Source: Xanthobacteraceae bacterium
Lineage (GTDB): Bacteria > Pseudomonadota > Alphaproteobacteria > Rhizobiales > Xanthobacteraceae
Direction of reading: 5' to 3'
DNA: 64,000 nucleotides
Assembly: GCA_019746355.1 (NCBI GenBank)
Contig: JAIESC010000031.1
Location: 24,583-88,582 of the forward strand
This document shows, in pieces, positions 11,553 to 55,510 of the stretch. Below the pieces are notes generated by a model that was not told where the DNA came from, made no database searches, and was given only the letters and a program-made list of their open reading frames with translations. Position 1 is the first letter of the stretch; each line of letters begins with the position of its first letter. Made by a program: the position numbers and the translations under genes.

Positions 11553-11623
11553 GCCATGAGCGCGTCTACGCGCGTCCTCGACGCGCATGAGCGCGTCTAC
11601 GCGCGTCTTCGACGTGCTATGGC
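11553..11623. repeat. Nested-palindrome family: tandem double core
   Basis: Two head-to-tail copies (period 31 nt) of the core ATGAGCGCGTCTACGCGCGT plus TCGACGCGC lie between GCCAT and ATGGC ends, in the spacer between comF and the next gene. The same core occurs in other intergenic spacers of the window. It is open in several frames and adds a false MSASTRVFD-type N-terminus to the downstream gene. Confidence 0.85.
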
Positions 11624-37195: not shown

Positions 37196-37263
37196 GGGGC
37201 GCGCCCATAAGCGCGTTTACGCGCGTCTTCGACGCGCTATGGGCGCGAACCGAGAATCCAGTT
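37196..37263. repeat. Nested-palindrome family: full copy between cobS and cobT
   Basis: GGGGCGCGCCCATAAGCGCG ... CGCGCTATGGGCGCGAACC forms a long stem, with the core in the middle. The outer arms are decayed (GAGAATCCA instead of the usual CCCGGAATCCA). It is within 15 nt of the cobS stop. Confidence 0.85.
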
Positions 37264-37284
37264 CCGGATGCAGAATGCGCATCT

Positions 37285-37325
37285 GGATTCCGGGTTCGGC
37301 GCTTTCGCGCCGCCCCGGAATGACA
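37285..37325. repeat. Nested-palindrome family: short-loop copy upstream of cobT
   Basis: ATTCCGGG-TT-CGGCGC-TTTC-GCGCCG-C-CCCGGAAT is a hairpin with the same outer arms and the same TT bulge as other copies, but a different inner stem and only a 4-nt loop. It ends 30 nt before the cobT start and probably forms in the cobT leader. Confidence 0.9.
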
Positions 37326-37354
37326 GTCGAGAGACCGGTGGCCGAATAATCCCG

Positions 37355-39256
37355 ATGTCCTCCAACCAGAAGCCCAAGACGCAGCCGAAGGAATCCCCCG
37401 CCGAGCCGTTCAAGCGGGCGGTGACCGGCTGCCTGCGCGCGATCGCCAAGAAGTCCGATCTCGATGTCTCGTTCGCGGCCGAGCGTCCGGGTCTGGTCGG
37501 CGGCAAGGTGCGTCTGCCTGAGCCCGCGCGAAAGCTCACCCGCGAGGAGGCCGCGATCGTCCGCGGCAATGCCGATGCGATCGCACTCAAGCTCGCCTGC
37601 CACGACGCGGCGGTGCATCGGCGCCTGCTGCCCGGCGGCCAGCAGGCGCGCGCGGTGTTCGACGCCGTGGAGCAGGCCCGCGTCGAGGCGATCGGCGCAC
37701 GCCGCATGCTGGGCGTGAAGAACAATCTTGCTGCGATGATCGGCGACCGCTTTCACCGCGGCAAATTCGACGAGGTGACTGACCGCGCCGACGCGCCGAT
37801 CGAGGAAGCCATCGCCATGATGGTGCGCGAGCGGCTCACCGGCCAGGCGCCGCCGACGGCGGCGAAGAAGCTCGTCGATCTGTGGCGTCCGTTCATCGAG
37901 GACCGCGCCGGGCGCGGCCTCGACAAGCTCGAGCGCCTGGTCGAGGACCAGCGCAAGTTCGGCGACGCCGTGCACGACCTGCTCGAGCAGCTCGACATGG
38001 GCGAGGATCGCACCACCTCCGACGAGGAGGAAGAGGGCGAGGAGGGCGAGCAGGAGCGCAAGAAGGACGAGACCGGCGAGCAGGGCGAGGCCGCCGACTC
38101 CGACGACATGGAAAAGATGAGCATGGAGGACGCGGAAGCGTCCGCCGATGCTTCGGAGACCGCCGAGGAGGCCGTCGACGCGCCCGCGGCCGACATGGCC
38201 GACGACTCGGAGATGGGCGAGTCCGAGACCGCCGCCGAGCCGTGGCGTCCGCGCAACCGGCCGAACGAGCCGCGCGGCCCGGAGTACAAGCCGTTCACCG
38301 CGCGGTTCGACGAGACCGTGCCCGCCGAAGAGCTGTGCGAGCCGGAAGAGCTCGACCGGCTGCGCGGCTATCTCGACAAGCAGCTTTCGCATCTGCAGGG
38401 CGTCGTGGCGCGGTTGGCAAATCGCCTGCAGCGCCGCCTGATGGCGCAGCAGAACCGCGCCTGGGATTTCGACCTCGAGGAGGGCCTGCTCGATCCGTCG
38501 CGGCTGCCGCGCATCATCATCGATCCGCTGCATGCGCTGTCGTTCAAGCAGGAGAAGGAGACGAACTTCCGCGACACCGTGGTGACGCTGCTGCTCGACA
38601 ACTCCGGCTCGATGCGCGGCCGTCCGATCACGGTGGCCGCCACCTGCGCCGACATTCTCGCGCGCACGCTGGAACGCTGCGGCGTCAAGGTCGAGATTCT
38701 CGGCTTCACCACCCGGGCCTGGAAGGGCGGGCAGGCGCGCGAGTCCTGGCTTGCCGCCGGCAAGACACCCAATCCGGGCCGGCTCAACGACCTTCGCCAC
38801 ATCATCTACAAGTCGGCCGACGCGCCGTGGCGGCGCGCGCGCAAGAACCTCGGCCTGATGATGCGCGAGGGTCTGCTCAAGGAGAACATCGACGGCGAGG
38901 CGCTGGATTGGGCGCACAAGCGGCTGCTGGCCCGATCCGAGCAGCGCAAGATTCTGATGATGATCTCCGACGGCGCGCCGGTCGACGACTCCACGTTGTC
39001 GGTCAACCCGGGCAACTATCTTGAACGGCATCTGCGCTGGATCATCGAGGACATCGAGACCCGCTCGCCGGTCGAGCTGATTGCCATCGGCATCGGCCAC
39101 GACGTCACGCGCTACTACCGCCGCGCCGTCACCATCGTCGATGCCGAGGAGCTGGGTGGCGCCATGACCGAGAAGCTCGCGGAGCTGTTCGAGGAGCACG
39201 CCCAGGCCGACTTGGCTGCCGCCGTGCGGCGTCCGGTGCGTAAACTACATTCGTGA
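37355..39256 (+). CDS. cobT: Cobaltochelatase subunit CobT
   Basis: CobT partners with CobS in the cobalt-chelatase complex. The 633 residues have a helical N-terminal region, a very acidic stretch (about 225-300, rich in Glu/Asp), and a C-terminal von Willebrand A domain with the MIDAS motif DNSGSM in [13 protein letters not shown]. The tripartite layout and length are as in known CobT. The start [11 protein letters not shown] (ATG 37355) is chosen; upstream in-frame codons are repeat DNA. Confidence 0.95.
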
Positions 39257-39280
39257 ATTTCCCGCCGGCCCGACGGGCGG

Positions 39281-39322
39281 CGCCATAAGCGCGTCTACGC
39301 GCGTCTTCGACGCGCTATGGCG
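39281..39322. repeat. Nested-palindrome family: core copy
   Basis: CGCCATAAGCGCG ... CGCGCTATGGCG is a 42-nt copy of the core with CGCCATA/TATGGCG arms, between cobT and the next gene. Confidence 0.85.
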
Positions 39323-39355
39323 ATCAGGTAAAGTGGCCTCGGCACGAGGTTGATT

Positions 39356-40378
39356 TTGAAAATCGCCACTTCCCGCATCTCGGCCCTTCTGGCCATTCTT
39401 GCGCTTGCGCTGATTCCGGCGGCGGCCCAGCCGCCGCGCGAGCCTGCGCTGCAGAAGATCGAGATCAAGTCGCAGGCCATCGAGGCCTTCGATCCGCGCG
39501 ACGTCTCCCGCAGGCGTTTCGGCGCGCTCGAATTCCGCGGCGGGCTGGTGCTCGATTCTGCCACGAAGCACTTCGGCGGCCTCTCCGGGCTGCGCGTCAT
39601 GGCCGACGGCCAGCATTTCGTGGCGGTCACCGACAAGGGGCAGTGGCTGCGCGCGCGCATCGTCTATCGCGGCGCGGTGCCGATCGCGATCACCAACGCT
39701 GAGATGGCGCCGATCCTCGGCGCCGACGGACGGCCGCTGCGGGGGCGCGGCTGGTACGACACCGAGTCGCTCGCCGACGACGGCGATACGATGTACGTCG
39801 GCATCGAGCGCGTTCACCGCATCGTCCGGTTCAATTTCGGCCAGGACGGCCTGCTGGCGCGTGGCATTCCGGTTCCCGTGCCGCCGGCGTTCCGCACCTT
39901 GCCGCACAATGCGAGTCTCGAGTGCCTGGCGATGGCGCCGAAGAGCGGCCCGCTCGGCGGCACGCTGATCGCGATCTCCGAACGCGGCCTCGACCCGAAC
40001 GGCAACATCCTCGGCTTCCTGGTCGGCGGAGCTACACGTGGCAGCTTCTCGTTCAAGCGCACCGATGATTTCGATGTCAGCGACTGCGCGATATCGCCCG
40101 GTGGCAGGCTGCTCGTCCTGGAGCGGCGCTTCAACTGGCTCAGCGGAATTGCGATGCGAATTCGCAGCGTGCCGCTCGGGTCGATCCGGCCCAATGCAAC
40201 GGTTGACGGCACGGAGCTGATCTCAGCCGACATGGGCTATCAGATCGACAACATGGAAGGCCTGTCGGCGCATCGCGCGCCCGACGGCTCGATCGTGCTG
40301 ACGATCGTGTCCGACGACAATTTCTCGCCGTTGCAGCGGACGTTGCTGCTGCAGTTCACTTTAGTTGGTGAGCGGTAG
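39356..40378 (+). CDS. Secreted esterase-like phytase-family protein (PF13449 type)
   Basis: This 340-residue protein has an N-terminal signal peptide (about 1-25, ending AAAQ) and a beta-propeller-like body with WYDTESLADDGDTMYVGIER and GYQIDNMEGLSAH, as in the 'esterase-like activity of phytase' family. The start is a TTG at 39356, with ACGAGG a few nt upstream; another TTG lies two codons earlier. The enzyme activity of this family is poorly defined. It follows cobT and precedes the GIY-YIG unit. Confidence 0.82.
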   Translation: MKIATSRISALLAILALALIPAAAQPPREPALQKIEIKSQAIEAFDPRDVSRRRFGALEFRGGLVLDSATKHFGGLSGLRVMADGQHFVAVTDKGQWLRARIVYRGAVPIAITNAEMAPILGADGRPLRGRGWYDTESLADDGDTMYVGIERVHRIVRFNFGQDGLLARGIPVPVPPAFRTLPHNASLECLAMAPKSGPLGGTLIAISERGLDPNGNILGFLVGGATRGSFSFKRTDDFDVSDCAISPGGRLLVLERRFNWLSGIAMRIRSVPLGSIRPNATVDGTELISADMGYQIDNMEGLSAHRAPDGSIVLTIVSDDNFSPLQRTLLLQFTLVGER

Positions 40379-40390
40379 CCTATCCGCGAG

Positions 40391-40471
40391 TCATTCCGGG
40401 GCCGGCCCGTAAGCGCGTTCACGCGCGTCTTCGACGCGCTATGGGCCGGAACCCGGAATCCATAACCACAA
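40391..40471 (+). repeat. Left 81-nt inverted repeat of the GIY-YIG unit
   Basis: TCATTCCGGGG-CCGGCCC ... GGGCCGG-AA-CCCGGAATCCATAACCACAA contains the nested palindrome with the core in its loop. It starts 12 nt after the stop of the phytase-like gene. The reverse complement of 40806-40886 matches it at about 74 of 81 positions by hand alignment. Confidence 0.95.
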
Positions 40472-40479
40472 TTGGCGCG

Positions 40480-40767
40480 ATGGCATACTACGTTTACCTG
40501 CTCTCAAGCGGAAAGCACGGCACTCTCTATTTGGGAGTGACGCGCGACCTAGTACGCCGCGTGTATCAGCACAAAACGAAGGCCACTCCTGGCTTCACGT
40601 CGCGCTATGGCGTGACTCGCTTAGTCTGGTTTGAAGCATACGACGATCCGACAACGGCGATCACTCGCGAAAAAGAAATCAAGAAATGGCGGCGCGATTG
40701 GAAAGTGACGTTGATCGAGAACGAAAATCCCGATTGGGACGACCTCTACAACTCCATAACAAAATAG
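40480..40767 (+). CDS. Small GIY-YIG nuclease bracketed by inverted repeats
   Basis: The 95-residue protein is a stand-alone GIY-YIG endonuclease domain: YYVYLLSSGKHGTLYLGVT holds the GIY and YIG elements (about 3-19), RDLVRRVYQHK the conserved Arg/His helix, and AITREKEIKKW the catalytic Glu (about 64). ATG 40480 is used; an extended start at 40441 lies inside the left repeat. It has its own hairpin terminator and is flanked by 81-nt inverted copies of the window's palindrome family. It sits between the 3' ends of two convergent genes, as an insertion would. Its base composition is lower in GC than the neighbours. Confidence 0.92.
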   Translation: MAYYVYLLSSGKHGTLYLGVTRDLVRRVYQHKTKATPGFTSRYGVTRLVWFEAYDDPTTAITREKEIKKWRRDWKVTLIENENPDWDDLYNSITK

Positions 40768-40786
40768 GGCGGCAGAGCCGCCCTAT
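40766..40786 (+). terminator. Hairpin after the GIY-YIG gene
   Basis: AGGGCGGCAGAGCCGCCCT is an 8-bp stem with a 3-nt loop that overlaps the stop codon. It lies inside the inverted-repeat unit, so the unit carries its own end signal, though no T tract follows. Confidence 0.6.
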
Positions 40787-40805
40787 CGCATCAAGACACT
40801 GAGAG

Positions 40806-40886
40806 TTGTGGTTATGGATTCCGGGTTCGCGCCCATAGCGCGTCGAAGACGCGCGTAAACGCGCTGGCGGGCGCGCCCCGGAATGA
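40806..40886 (-). repeat. Right 81-nt inverted repeat of the GIY-YIG unit
   Basis: TTGTGGTTATGGATTCCGGG ... CCCCGGAATGA is the reverse complement of the left copy apart from about seven bases. Two pairs of differences exchange C-G for G-C pairs and leave the inner stem intact. It ends 13 nt before the rpmB stop. Confidence 0.95.
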
Positions 40887-40899
40887 CGCCGGTGCGAGA

Positions 40900-41190
40900 C
40901 TAACCAGCCTTCGCCTGCTTCTTCTCGATCTGCTTCTTCAGGTCGCGCATGCGCGGCGCAAGCGTCGCGCTCTTGGCGTGCAGCAGGTAGGCGTCGAGCC
41001 CGCCGCGGTGATCCACGCTCTTCAGCGCGTTGGCTGAGACGCGCAGCTTGATCGAGCGGCCGAGTGCGTCCGACATCATCGTGACGTTGAGCAGGTTCGG
41101 CAGGAACCGCCGTTTGGTCTTGATGTTGGAGTGGCTGACCTTGTGGCCGACCAGGACAGCCTTGCCGGTGAGGTCGCAGCGCCGTGACAT
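40900..41190 (-). CDS. rpmB: 50S ribosomal protein L28
   Basis: L28 is a small basic protein of the large ribosomal subunit. The 96 residues begin [20 protein letters not shown] with the conserved [12 protein letters not shown], and the later region [20 protein letters not shown]. The last residues form a Lys/Gln-rich tail, as in alphaproteobacterial L28. It converges with the GIY-YIG unit and is divergent from the DUF3108 gene. Confidence 0.95.
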
Positions 41191-41450: not shown

Positions 41451-42317
41451 TTGGCCTGGACTGTGGTTCGGTCAGCGATCGGGCCTGCCGCCGCCTTCGG
41501 GCTCCTGGCGGTCGGGTCCGCCCAATCCCCGGTTCAGGCCCAGAGTCAGGCCCAGGGCCGGGTGGACGCTCGCTATGCGGTCACCCTCGGCGGCGTGTCG
41601 ATCGGCAAAGGCGCCTGGGTCGTCGACATCTCCGAAAACCAGTTCACCGCAGCCGCGAGCGGGGCGACCTCGGGGCTTCTCCGGGTGCTTTCGACCGGCC
41701 AGGGCAGCGGAGCATCGCGCGGCTATCTGATCGGAGGCAATCTGGTTCCCGCGAGCTTTGCCGCCAGCATCACCACCGACAAGAAGACCGAAGAGATCCG
41801 CATGACGCTCGGTTCGGGCGACGTGAAGGATTTTTCCATTATGCCTCCCGTCCAGCCGGACGACGAGCGTATCCCGCTGACCGACGCCCACCGCCGTGCC
41901 GTCACTGACCCGATGACCGGCTCGCTGGTTCGCGTTCCCGGTACGGCCAATCCACTCAGTCCGCTGGCCTGCCAGCGCACCACTTCAGTGTTCGACGGCC
42001 GTATGCGCTACGACCTGAAGTTCGCGTACAAGCGGATGGAACAGGTCAAGGCCGAGAAGGGCTACGAGGGGCCGGCGGTCGTGTGTGCCGTCTATTTCGT
42101 GCCTGTCGCCGGCTTCGTGCCGTCGCGTCCCGCAATCAAGTATCTGGTCGCCCAGCGCGAGATGGAGGTGTGGCTGGCGCCGGTTGGTACGACCCGCGTG
42201 CTGGTGCCGTTCCGTGTCTCGATCCCGACGCCGATCGGACAGGGGGTGATGGTGGCGACGCAGTTCATCGCCTCGCCGCCGCACGCCACCGCCTCGACCG
42301 GCCCGAAGACGCAATAG
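41451..42317 (+). CDS. DUF3108 periplasmic protein
   Basis: The 288-residue protein has a signal peptide (about 1-30, ending VQAQS) and a mature part beginning VDARYAVTLGGVSIGKGAW, the DUF3108 start. The C-terminus has the conserved DLKFAYKRMEQVKAE and VCAVYFVPVAGFVPSRPAIKYL. It starts with TTG at 41451, with GGGGAGAACGG just upstream. The function is unknown; it is a conserved envelope protein in this order. It is divergent from rpmB. Confidence 0.82.
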   Translation: MAWTVVRSAIGPAAAFGLLAVGSAQSPVQAQSQAQGRVDARYAVTLGGVSIGKGAWVVDISENQFTAAASGATSGLLRVLSTGQGSGASRGYLIGGNLVPASFAASITTDKKTEEIRMTLGSGDVKDFSIMPPVQPDDERIPLTDAHRRAVTDPMTGSLVRVPGTANPLSPLACQRTTSVFDGRMRYDLKFAYKRMEQVKAEKGYEGPAVVCAVYFVPVAGFVPSRPAIKYLVAQREMEVWLAPVGTTRVLVPFRVSIPTPIGQGVMVATQFIASPPHATASTGPKTQ

Positions 42318-45600: not shown

Positions 45601-46118
45601 AGGTGTGGCGGCCGGGCCGTCCGCTTGGCGAGCGCCGGCCGCGCGACGGCGAACGCACCCGCCGCCGCAGGCATCGCGGCGATCGCAAGCCGGAGCAGGC
45701 GCAAACCCAAACCCAAACCCACGTGGCCGGCAACGGCGCTGTTGCTGCTGCTGGAACCGAGCCGGCGGCTGCTCCAGCAGGCGACGATGCGGCCACGCCC
45801 GGCGACCAGAACCGCGAGCATCGCGGCCGCCGCCGTCACCGCCGCCAGGACGGCGGGAACGGCGAGCAGCGCGCTGATCGCGCCGACCGTCACGAGAAGC
45901 GCGACCGGCAGGCGCGCGACGACAAGCGACACGAGCGCGACGGCCGCTCCGGCCGCCCGCCGCGTCGCGATCGGGACCGCGATCGCCGCGACGACGAGCG
46001 GCCGTCGCGCACCTGGAGTTCGAGCGAGCAGAAGCGCGGCGGCAAGGAACCCGATCCGAACTCGCCGTTCGCCAAGCTCCTTGCGCTGAAAGAGCAGCTC
46101 GAGGGCAACAAGCGGTAG
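42687..46118 (+). CDS. SUV3-like RNA helicase with long disordered C-terminus
   Basis: The 1143 residues are in two parts. Residues 1-820 form a superfamily 2 helicase of the SUV3 type: Walker A GPTNTGKTH (about 25-33), DEVQ (about 107-110) where most helicases have DEAD/DExH, and the C-terminal SUV3-type motif AGRAGRAQRDGTFGTTG. Residues 820-1143 are low-complexity: four PPQAET repeats, Ala/Pro/Glu-rich stretches, then an Arg/Asp/His-rich basic tail. SUV3 acts in the mitochondrial degradosome; a bacterial RNA-turnover role is inferred. ATG 42687 is taken. The S4 gene follows after 12 nt. Confidence 0.92.
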   Translation: MSLSFSSPVSRDARARGAGVTAVLGPTNTGKTHLAIERMISHSSGLIGLPLRLLAREVYNKVVDRVGAENVALITGEEKIKPQNPRFWVSTVEAMPRDIDCAFVAIDEVQLGSDLDRGHVFTDRALNRRGREETLVLGAATMRPMVERLLPGANIVQRPRLSTLIHSGDRKITRLPRRSAIVAFSAEEVYAIAELIRRQRGGAAVVLGALSPRTRNAQVALYQSGDVDYLIATDAIGMGLNLDVDHVAFASDRKFDGYQFRRLNPSEMAQIAGRAGRAQRDGTFGTTGRCQPFEDDLIRALESHSFEPIKVLQWRNTDLDFSSIGALQASLARTPEEQGLTRAPIAEDILVFEHAARDEEIRAMASNKAAIERLWDVCQVPDYRKIAPATHAELIVTLYGFLMREGKIPADWFSAQVAQADRTDGDIDTLSNRIAHVRTWTFVANRPDWLADPEHWQAVARGVEDKLSDALHERLTERFVDRRTSVLMRRLRENSTLETEIKKTGEVVVEGHEIGRLDGFTFVADASAAGSEAKALQAAARTALAGEIDARATKLQHAPEREFVLDSDGTVRWIGAPVGKLIAGDDVLRPRLRVIADEQLTGAAREAVQTRLDLWLKTHIERLLGPLFALAAAEDVTGIARGVAYQIIEALGVLERQKVAEEVKGLDQPSRATLRKYGIRFGAYHLYLPALLKPAPRSLAAHLWLLKNGTPEDKGLAELQRLASSGRTSIPVDKETPKPLYRTIGYRVCGERAIRVDILERLADLIRPALSWREGSAPRPPGAFNGFGFTVTGAMTSLTGASGEDFASILRSLGYRMEKRPKPPQAETPPQAETPPQAETPPQAETPPEPEKPVEAEATAGVPASDATASSEASTVAPDDVHADGEMPEADVAEPAPALAPETEPAPDVEASPAAEPAPSPEAQSSGDAPPPAEPVAAAEAAPFEPAADAPAPAGFAEASTAAAPAEPDLIEVWRPGRPLGERRPRDGERTRRRRHRGDRKPEQAQTQTQTHVAGNGAVAAAGTEPAAAPAGDDAATPGDQNREHRGRRRHRRQDGGNGEQRADRADRHEKRDRQARDDKRHERDGRSGRPPRRDRDRDRRDDERPSRTWSSSEQKRGGKEPDPNSPFAKLLALKEQLEGNKR
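45153..45224. repeat. 18-nt coding tandem repeat, four perfect copies (PPQAET)
   Basis: CCGCCGCAGGCAGAAACG is present four times without a mismatch, inside the linker of the helicase. Perfect identity at the DNA level points to recent slippage or recombination; gain or loss keeps the frame. Confidence 0.95.
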
Positions 46119-52784: not shown

Positions 52785-52800
52785 TCGGACCACCGGCGTC

Positions 52801-52848
52801 ATTCCGGGTTCGCGCCCATAGCGCGTTGAACACGCGCGTAAACGCGCT
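52801..52848. repeat. Left half of an interrupted nested palindrome
   Basis: ATTCCGGGTTCGCGCCCATA followed by GCGCG ... AAACGCGCT matches the right GIY-YIG repeat up to the same position (AAACGCGCT), then diverges. Confidence 0.85.
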
Positions 52849-52853
52849 TAGCA

Positions 52854-53226: not shown

Positions 53227-53247
53227 GGGGCGCGCCCCGGAATGACA
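53227..53247. repeat. Right half of an interrupted nested palindrome
   Basis: GGGGCGCGCCCCGGAATGAC matches the far end of the right GIY-YIG repeat. Together with 52801-52848 it makes a nearly complete copy with about 378 nt of extra DNA between the halves. Confidence 0.75.
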
Positions 53248-54477: not shown

Positions 54478-55452
54478 CTACTCAGCCTTCATGCCCACGG
54501 CCTTGGCAATTCCGGTCCAGCGCGGCGTTTCTTCGGCGATGAACCGCGCATAGTCCTGCGGCGAGCCGACCTTGGCGTCGAAGCCGAGCTTGGCCATGGC
54601 GTCCTTCATCTCCGGCGAGCGCAGCGTGTCGTTGATCGCGCCGTTGACCCGGCCGACGATCTCGGGCGGCGTGCCGGCCGGCGCCATGACGCCGGCCCAG
54701 AATTCCAGCGTCAGCTCCGGCAGGCCGGCCTCGCGCGCGGTCGGCACGTCGGGCAGCTCGGCGCTCCGCGCCGGGCTCGTGATCATCAGCGGCCGCATCT
54801 TGCCCTCGCGAATGAGCGGCAGCGACGTCGATGGCGTCGGATTCAGCACCTGGATCCGGCCGCCGAGAAAATCGGGCAGGGCGGCCGCGCCGCCCTTGTA
54901 GGGCACGATCAGCAGGTCGGCGCCGCTGAGCTGCTTGAACCGTTCCGCCACCAGCATCGCGGCGGTGCCCTGGGTCGCCGCGAAATTCACCGTTCCGGGA
55001 TGCGCCTTGGTGTGCGCGACGAACTCGGCCATCGTCCGGACCGGCAGGGCGGGCGACACCGCAATCAGCCAGGCCGCGGTGTTCACGGTCGCGACCGGGG
55101 CGAACTCCTTGAGCGGATCGTAGGCGACCCCTTTCATCGCCGGATCGACGATGATCGCCGAGCTGATGAACAGCAGCGTGTAGCCGTCCGGCTCGGCGGC
55201 CGCCGCAAGCTTGGTGCCGATCGTGGTCCCGCCGCCCGGCTTGTTGTCGATGACGATCGGCTGGCCGAGCCGCGGCGACAGATGCTGCGTCAGCAGCCGC
55301 GCCATCACGTCATTGGGCGAGCCCGGCGTGAACGGCACGACGAGCTTGATGACGCGGTTGGGGTAGGACTGTGCGGAAGCGGGACCGGCGAACGCCAGCC
55401 CTGCCACGAGCGCGTATGCTGCGATTGCGATCCACGCTCTCAGCACGGTCAT
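54478..55452 (-). CDS. Bug-family periplasmic solute-binding protein
   Basis: This is a 324-residue receptor: signal peptide (about 1-28, ending GPASAQS), then YPNRVIKLVVPFTPGSPNDV, IDNKPGGGTTIGTKLAA and EPDGYTLLFIS. It has the standard PDGYTL form. The ATG (55450-55452) is inside the left arm of a palindrome (55446-55510), so the leader is repeat DNA. It precedes a flavin monooxygenase and follows another Bug gene on the same strand. Confidence 0.9.
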   Translation of the reverse strand: MTVLRAWIAIAAYALVAGLAFAGPASAQSYPNRVIKLVVPFTPGSPNDVMARLLTQHLSPRLGQPIVIDNKPGGGTTIGTKLAAAAEPDGYTLLFISSAIIVDPAMKGVAYDPLKEFAPVATVNTAAWLIAVSPALPVRTMAEFVAHTKAHPGTVNFAATQGTAAMLVAERFKQLSGADLLIVPYKGGAAALPDFLGGRIQVLNPTPSTSLPLIREGKMRPLMITSPARSAELPDVPTAREAGLPELTLEFWAGVMAPAGTPPEIVGRVNGAINDTLRSPEMKDAMAKLGFDAKVGSPQDYARFIAEETPRWTGIAKAVGMKAE

Positions 55453-55510
55453 TCCGGACGCCGCCACAAGCGCGTAAAACGCGCTGGTGCGGCGCGCCCG
55501 GGAATGACCG
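55446..55510. repeat. Nested-palindrome family copy overlapping a start codon
   Basis: Perfect 10-nt ends CGGTCATTCC / GGAATGACCG enclose AGCGCGT-AAA-ACGCGCT (7-bp stem, 3-nt loop) and partly paired GC-rich arms. The start codon of the receptor gene is in the left end. Confidence 0.88.

Follow-up and report, generated by a model that had tools for sequence, protein, structure and literature searches.

In a 64,000-nucleotide stretch of a Xanthobacteraceae genome (assembly GCA_019746355.1, contig JAIESC010000031.1; hereafter the window), a small gene for a stand-alone GIY-YIG nuclease lies between two inverted repetitive extragenic palindromes (REPs) of the CGTC type. This protein is probably the dedicated partner enzyme of CGTC-type REPs, as the REP-associated tyrosine transposase (RAYT) is of GTAG REPs, and the spread of the palindromes is probably driven by it. 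The full unit would be composed of CGTC-palindrome-CCA, the gene, and TGG-palindrome-GACG, and gene-less head-to-head pairs of palindromes would represent its non-autonomous form. The CGTC-tagged REP superfamily was described by Di Nocera et al. in 2013 (PMC3733652) as small repeats that are centred on the alphaproteobacteria and extend beyond them, including those of Bradyrhizobium and Rhodopseudomonas, the dRS3 repeats of Neisseria and repeats of Rickettsia. In the part of that survey available here, no link of CGTC REPs to transposase genes is reported and they "seem lacking a dedicated transposase", an absence for which extinction or borrowed enzymes were the suggested explanations.

The window unit is intergenic and sits between two convergent genes, a phytase-like gene and rpmB, which lie 11 and 12 nt from its arms, respectively. 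The inverted arms (40390-40471 and 40806-40887) are 82 nt long, 91% complementary and 334 nt apart, and the hairpin fold of each beats 200 of 200 dinucleotide shuffles (z -5.2 and -4.0). The gene encodes 95 amino acids that match a single Pfam family, PF01541 (GIY-YIG, 4e-15), and a 9-bp hairpin that starts at its stop codon is common to the units found at the same site in two genomes of the same genus, G001 and G005. A first-pass annotation of the window, made by a model from the letters alone, had already recognised a GIY-YIG gene with a hairpin between inverted repeats, closely bordered by convergent genes, and this layout is borne out.

Comparison with relatives delimits the palindrome proper as GTC...CCA, about 40 nt in the G001 unit. 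Both window arms read GTC-ATTCCGGG...CCCGGAAT-CCA with the CCA side facing the gene, and the base before GTC is C in the right arm and A in the left; among 105 units, C or T occupies this position at 194 of 210 arm ends. The loops of the window palindromes and of others of the same type (type A) are longer than 4-5 nt and partly self-complementary, and loops of about 4-5 nt are found in many relatives (types B, C and D). The window arms are long because both hold a nested repeat of about 33 nt, which the same-site arms of G001 and G005 lack; its presence in both window arms suggests that the two arms of one unit are kept alike. The nested repeat (core CGTCGAAGACGCG) is found in the window at 40415-40450, 40833-40865, 37205-37245, 39285-39320 and 11559-11622; here and in relatives (L014, L021, L067) it occupies the loops of several different types of palindrome. 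Many matches cover this part only, and it looks like a second repeat family living within palindrome loops.

The pairing of gene and palindrome recurs widely. Relatives of the gene are present in 32 of 41 genomes drawn around the nearest relative available; across the phylum, 185 of 299 genomes have one at E 1e-3, and in 79 of the 299 the match falls below E 1e-19. The first set contributed 30 places taken as loci and 40 taken by region, without the weakest matches; from the matches listed for the second, 30 loci, 40 regions and 20 more were taken, and of those 20 the copies in G199 and G096 were analysed. When only gene matches below E 1e-20 were considered (63 loci, 62 with full flanks), inverted repeats scoring at least 30 bits within 150 bp were found at 47 of 62 GIY-YIG loci versus 1 of 248 random segments. 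Flanks swapped between loci reached 30 bits in 20 of 186 cases, and flanks of the same locus in direct orientation did so in 17 of 62, a result of the common consensus and near symmetry of the palindromes; the arm-to-arm match inside a unit exceeds this shared-consensus level. A strict detector, which requires GTC, a stem of 8 bp or more and a CCA tail, was applied to 211 loci pooled from three sources, after one contig-edge locus and L121 (the same as L001) had been dropped. By this criterion 100 of the 211 genes are flanked head-to-head on both sides and 145 on one side or more, versus 12 of 211 flanked on both sides in the opposite orientation (27 and 43 for the single sides). Random segments of the same loci gave 0 of 844 for both sides and 3 and 1 of 844 for the single sides, and chance or local repeat density as the cause is ruled out by the 0/844 and 1/248 controls. 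Absence of the arms near other GIY-YIG genes, which the first-pass annotation had named as grounds for abandoning the idea of a mobile unit, is thus not what was found.

A protein pattern alone recovered 80 named loci, of which 21 are not named alpha-, beta- or gammaproteobacteria or plain "proteobacterium" (L224, L226, L228-L231, L234, L236-L238, L241-L243, L246, L250, L252, L254, L256, L263, L266 and L267, the last named "bacterium" only). With a relaxed detector, both arms were seen at 15 of these, one arm at 4 and none at 2. Copies of the gene on Shinella and Sphingobium plasmids are flanked head-to-head, and a homologue in Neisseria gonorrhoeae has dRS3-like palindromes around it, although not in a neat head-to-head arrangement; no flanking palindromes were detected beside the copies of Rhizobium tumorigenes, Sinorhizobium and Planktothrix. 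A 2.17-Mb N. gonorrhoeae record in the plasmid collection (NZ_CP119140.1) is, judging by its size, probably a chromosome. Nine small GIY-YIG genes outside the clade showed no CGTC palindromes beside them with the strict detector, which in the same run found them on both sides of two of five genes of the clade, the other three carrying palindrome types that this detector misses. In a second clade, small UPF0213-like GIY-YIG genes (L029, L067-L070) are bordered by other palindromes (CCTCATCCTGAGGAGC ... GTCTCGAAGGATGAGG) that the strict detector does not count, possibly a parallel case of gene-palindrome pairing. The GIY-YIG genes L364, L190 and L185, from Planktothrix and other genomes, adjoin repeats starting GTCATTCTGAG, GTCATCCCGAG or GTCATCCTGA, a further repeat type that may be part of the same system.

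Stem comparison indicates that the palindrome type tracks the GIY-YIG gene and not the genome. For this comparison L191 (the same as L014), L210 (the same as L019) and one contig-edge locus were dropped. The stem distance is 1.03 between the arms of one unit and 3.34 between loci; it is 0.62 for close proteins from different genomes (42 pairs; 37 loci) and 4.65 for distant paralogues within one genome (17 pairs), and the two close pairs from a single genome give 1 and 1. A Mantel test over 153 loci, uncorrected for locus relatedness, gave r 0.36, a value reached in none of 2000 permutations.

Gene-less palindromes keep the orientation of the full units. Among type-A palindromes within 5-35 nt of each other in the 41 genomes, 352 pairs are head-to-head and two tail-to-tail, and both of the latter adjoin GIY-YIG units. 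The spacers are regular: in G005, the 49 pairs listed of 92 have spacers of 23 nt (28 pairs), 24 nt (4), 25 nt (14) or other lengths (3). The pairs also turn over between species. Between the window and G001, whose flanks are 92-96% alike, gene-less pairs differ at three places: the window pair near 37.2 kb is not in G001, and G001 pairs near window positions 54.4 kb and 52.8 kb are missing or only partly present in the window.

The full unit differs in its presence between relatives as well. Of 30 loci corresponding to the window site, 21 keep the convergent gene pair, and the unit is present in G001 and G005 and absent from the other 19; within the genus, seven of the nine genomes that keep the pair are without it. 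Because most relatives lack the unit, and in several of them the intergenic gap is 2-17 nt, the unit is taken to have arrived later at the phytase-rpmB site. The first-pass annotation had proposed a search for such empty sites and would have yielded to a unit present in all relatives, which is not the case. One relative, G008, has a single palindrome at the place where others have the unit, and in G002, G003 and G011 inspection by eye of the window site revealed no type-A palindrome. At a second site (L158), 26 of 30 congener loci keep both neighbours and the unit is found in G199 only; the gene and its palindrome (by BLAST, this type only) are absent from 25 of 25 other loci of genus g40. A plasmid search with the G199 unit gave no match. 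Among Sphingobium plasmids, seven have the unit inserted between fnrL and a response-regulator gene, two carry in its stead one palindrome composed of the outer halves of both arms, and two have neither the unit nor this outer-half footprint. Exact empty alleles were sought in genus g40 and on the plasmids, where empty sites were found but none that agreed letter for letter. The 41 relatives contain 24 double-outer palindromes of type A and 0 double-inner forms; an excess of this kind is as expected if the interiors of head-to-head units are lost between half-stems, although slippage alone could produce it.

Five copies of one unit type were taken from five different places in genome G199. Four have both palindromes; three carry an approximately full-length open frame (in L158 it stops a few codons early) and two are decayed (L342 and L343). 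Compared with copy L344 of G096, similarity ends within about 4 nt of the unit. Between the G199 copies it extends 15 to 150 nt beyond the unit, at one end or at both, within another repeat that they share, so that units were inserted into that repeat or some moved with it; the reading of the unit as mobile is upheld all the same because of L344, the empty sites and the type matching. Four of the copies, L158, L340, L341 and L343, lie within or beside this larger shared repeat (see CCGTCCCCCACTCCGTC ...), and L342 of G199 corresponds to the same site as L162 of G096, with 1603 nt in common. Decayed copies (L342, L343, L346) keep well-preserved palindromes on one or both sides. Up to nine matches to the GIY-YIG family, fragments included, are found per genome, and G096, G199, G254 and G288, with seven to nine each, are good places for watching recent movement. 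No target-site duplication was seen beside six units. The outer flanks of these six and of 105 units show inverted matching for about three further bases, from which nothing is concluded because type-specific termini could cause it. Recurrence, empty sites and multicopy units together support the original suggestion of a REP/REPIN-like mobile unit.

Units also appear to be exchanged at one site. The GIY-YIG proteins of the window and G001 are 94.7% identical, and their genes show a synonymous divergence (dS) of 1.31, versus 0.20 for the phytase gene, 0.09 for rpmB, and 0.10 and 0.18 for the genes at 37268-39256 and 41451-42317; the ratio is rough, as the gene's dS is near saturation, but vertical descent of the gene together with its neighbours is hard to keep on these figures. 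Over 215 locus pairs with shared flanks, a crude comparison of pairs that are not independent, gene identity falls short of flank identity by more than 3 points in 114, exceeds it in 9 and lies within 3 points of it in 92. Unit exchange or a locally raised mutation rate would explain the divergence, and exchange is the favoured explanation. Such exchange would also be expected if the enzyme did nothing but home, cutting a gene-less palindrome site into which repair copies the gene unit, with the gene-less pairs spreading by other means. The single palindromes that replace the unit in G008 and on two Sphingobium plasmids fit this explanation, and the homing endonuclease I-TevI has the same fold. 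The empty sites speak otherwise, as all 25 in genus g40 are without the unit's palindrome and the window sites of three relatives without a type-A palindrome, and so do the regular spacers and unit-like orientation of the gene-less pairs; homing as the sole activity is therefore considered unlikely.

The nonsynonymous divergence (dN) of the window and G001 genes is low (0.02), so that the protein is under selection. Strong purifying selection could also be a sign of a domesticated Slx1-like repair nuclease of the host that resolves repeat cruciforms, the arms being its control or target sites and no drive being involved. The Slx1-like structure model agrees with this, as do near-identical genes (90% or more), of which 45 of 47 pairs share flanks, i.e., reflect mostly vertical descent. 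A host enzyme of this kind is quite improbable given the number of family matches per genome, the five copies at different places in G199, the presence of the unit in a minority of congeners at a site, and the association of one palindrome type with each gene type.

Genomes rich in palindromes are enriched for the gene: it is present in 79 of the 299 genomes as a whole, in 9 of the 13 where one CGTC form reaches 10 copies or more, and in 12 of 17 with at least five copies versus 67 of 282 others (Fisher 1e-4, uncorrected for phylogeny). The enrichment is real but partial, and to that extent it weighs against a dedicated GIY-YIG partner, as do several genomes in which palindromes occur without it. 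Only a uvrC-sized GIY-YIG frame is seen in G078 (69 copies of one CGTC-1 form), G325 (20 copies) and G094 (15), a small gene of another clade is present in G315 (10 copies), and type-A pairs occur in six genomes of the same genus in which no type-A gene was found, three of these assemblies being less than 86% complete. Abundance of the palindromes in genomes without the gene, another ground on which the mobile unit was to be given up, thus receives a mixed answer. That the gene is mere cargo between two CGTC palindromes moved by some other enzyme, as G078, G325 and G094 and the repeat shared outside some G199 units might indicate, is the least probable explanation, since the same gene family is found repeatedly with its own palindrome type (0 of 844 random segments), RAYT genes are not so placed, and the 2013 survey, as far as its text was available, reports no tyrosine transposase flanked by CGTC units and regards other transposase links as fortuitous (PMC3733652).

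Sequence comparison makes evident the association and its orientation, the type matching, multicopy units, insertion differences, neighbour-discordant divergence and double-outer footprints. A GIY-YIG enzyme dedicated to CGTC REPs could act through the following steps. The protein, with its Slx1-like predicted structure, would recognise its own palindrome extruded as a hairpin or cruciform, and we infer that it cuts the base of the palindrome, at the end with CGTC. As the break is repaired or replication restarts there, the unit would then be copied, with or without the gene, to a new place or over a resident unit. The chances are about even that this constitutes a new class of bacterial mobile element whose hairpin-ended DNA is moved by a minimal GIY-YIG nuclease and not by an enzyme of the HUH, DDE, tyrosine or serine kind; the nuclease would be the missing engine of CGTC REPs in Pseudomonadota, Desulfobacterota, Bacteroidota, Omnitrophota, Chloroflexota, Marinimicrobia, Planctomycetota and Patescibacteria, with gene-less pairs resembling miniature inverted-repeat transposable elements and resident units overwritten by homing-like exchange. 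The features of the window are compiled in Table 1.

Table 1. Coordinates of the GIY-YIG unit, its neighbours and other palindromes in the window
Feature	Position	Strand	Remarks
Left arm, CGTC-type REP palindrome (GTC-ATTCCGGG...CCCGGAAT-CCA)	40390..40462	+	CCA side towards gene; inter-arm similarity extends to 40471
Right arm, inverted palindrome copy	40815..40887	-	CCA side towards gene; inter-arm similarity starts at 40806
Stand-alone GIY-YIG nuclease gene, 95 aa	40480..40767	+	Conserved Y6, Y17, G19, R27, H31, E64, N83
9-bp stop-codon hairpin	40765..40785	+	Without T run; terminator role uncertain
Phytase-like gene (PF13449), flanking	39350..40378	+	
rpmB (ribosomal protein L28, PF00830), flanking	40900..41190	-	
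Gene-less head-to-head pair (REPIN-like)	37196..37324		Left member 37196-37260, outer end decayed; right member 37284-37324, - strand; not in the syntenic place of G001
Imperfect double-outer palindrome (GTC...GAC)	55448..55508		Form expected once a unit's interior is lost
Partial palindrome with nested repeat	52798..52850		Intact head-to-head pair there in G001

Further arm matches in the window were found by BLAST at 37196-37260, 39275-39320, 11559-11622, 52801-52850, 53228-53245 and 55470-55507. The palindromes had initially been reported to recur as solo copies; recurrence holds, but the matches at 39275 and 11559 cover the nested repeat only and the one at 37196 belongs to a head-to-head pair. 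In G001, contig C389 carries two copies of another hairpin repeat (AGCATGATCCCGAAAAG...GATCATGCTC) near 39376-39530 (L272), and none is seen at window position 46116.

CGTC REPs are widespread and seemingly without a transposase of their own (PMC3733652, as available in part), and a gene that has palindromes of matching type as its termini brings the question of the missing enzyme within reach of a test that uses one small protein and a single hairpin oligonucleotide. If the proposal is correct, a large bacterial repeat family that had no enzyme has probably been supplied with one. A gene whose present annotations go no further than "GIY-YIG nuclease family protein", "excinuclease ABC subunit C" or "hypothetical protein" would gain a function, and a fold better known from homing, repair and restriction would underlie a mobile element of bacteria.

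Among known proteins, the window nuclease has the GIY-YIG superfamily fold and the conserved catalytic residues. Its structure model (pLDDT 94.5) has Slx1, over its full length, among its best fold matches, and no DDE, HUH or tyrosine transposase is included in the best 50 listed. At E 0.01, its sequence relatives in the PDB are limited to the UPF0213 proteins 1zg2 and 1ywl, likewise minimal one-domain GIY-YIG proteins; the nine small GIY-YIG genes outside the clade showed no CGTC palindromes at their sides with the strict detector. Unlike in Slx1, 95 amino acids leave no room for a further domain; moreover, a C-terminal Asn is absent from Slx1 according to the part of PMC1564403 available, and the window family, which keeps N83, differs in this too if N83 corresponds to that position. 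Homing endonucleases of the I-TevI type reside in an intron, intein or target gene and have a DNA-binding domain, whereas the present unit is intergenic and encodes one 95-residue domain. As to classical insertion sequences, a unit of 503-506 bp that holds a GIY-YIG gene would leave no room for a DDE transposase.

The palindromes themselves agree with the CGTC REP superfamily, insofar as its description was available, in the CGTC or TGTC tag outside the stem (CCTC is also allowed), a stem of 8-9 bp that starts from AT and a CCA tail, seen in both window arms, and the predominance of head-to-head pairs. The usual loop of 4-5 nt is seen in many relatives but not in the window palindromes, whose loops are much longer; other loops are allowed in Bradyrhizobium CGTC-1 (PMC3733652). 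The first-pass view of a candidate new system therefore has to be narrowed, as the palindromes belong with a published superfamily, and what stands is their pairing with a GIY-YIG gene: among the matches listed from the PMC literature, which leaves preprints and most subscription papers outside, no paper on GIY-YIG genes with REP palindromes was found. The closest parallel is with RAYTs, REPtrons and REPINs, as set out in the accessible parts of PMC3733652, PMC3116915 and PMC8266576. In both systems a small gene is placed between inverted palindromes, gene-less head-to-head pairs occur, and one enzyme type goes with one palindrome type; the gene-less pairs, with their short spacers and turnover between species, compare with REPINs as mobile head-to-head pairs on the evidence of sequence. 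RAYT as the mover of the present system was rejected, as RAYT loci are not flanked by CGTC-type palindromes. The enzyme is GIY-YIG (PF01541) rather than Y1/HUH (PF01797), the palindromes are CGTC rather than GTAG, and the full unit, unlike a REPtron, is multicopy in G199. The unit works like a REPtron, but by its enzyme it is not one. Its parts, CGTC REP DNA and the GIY-YIG nuclease, are known; what is new is the enzyme attached to CGTC REPs, in that, unlike in CGTC REPs as published, a GIY-YIG gene carries the palindromes as its own termini.
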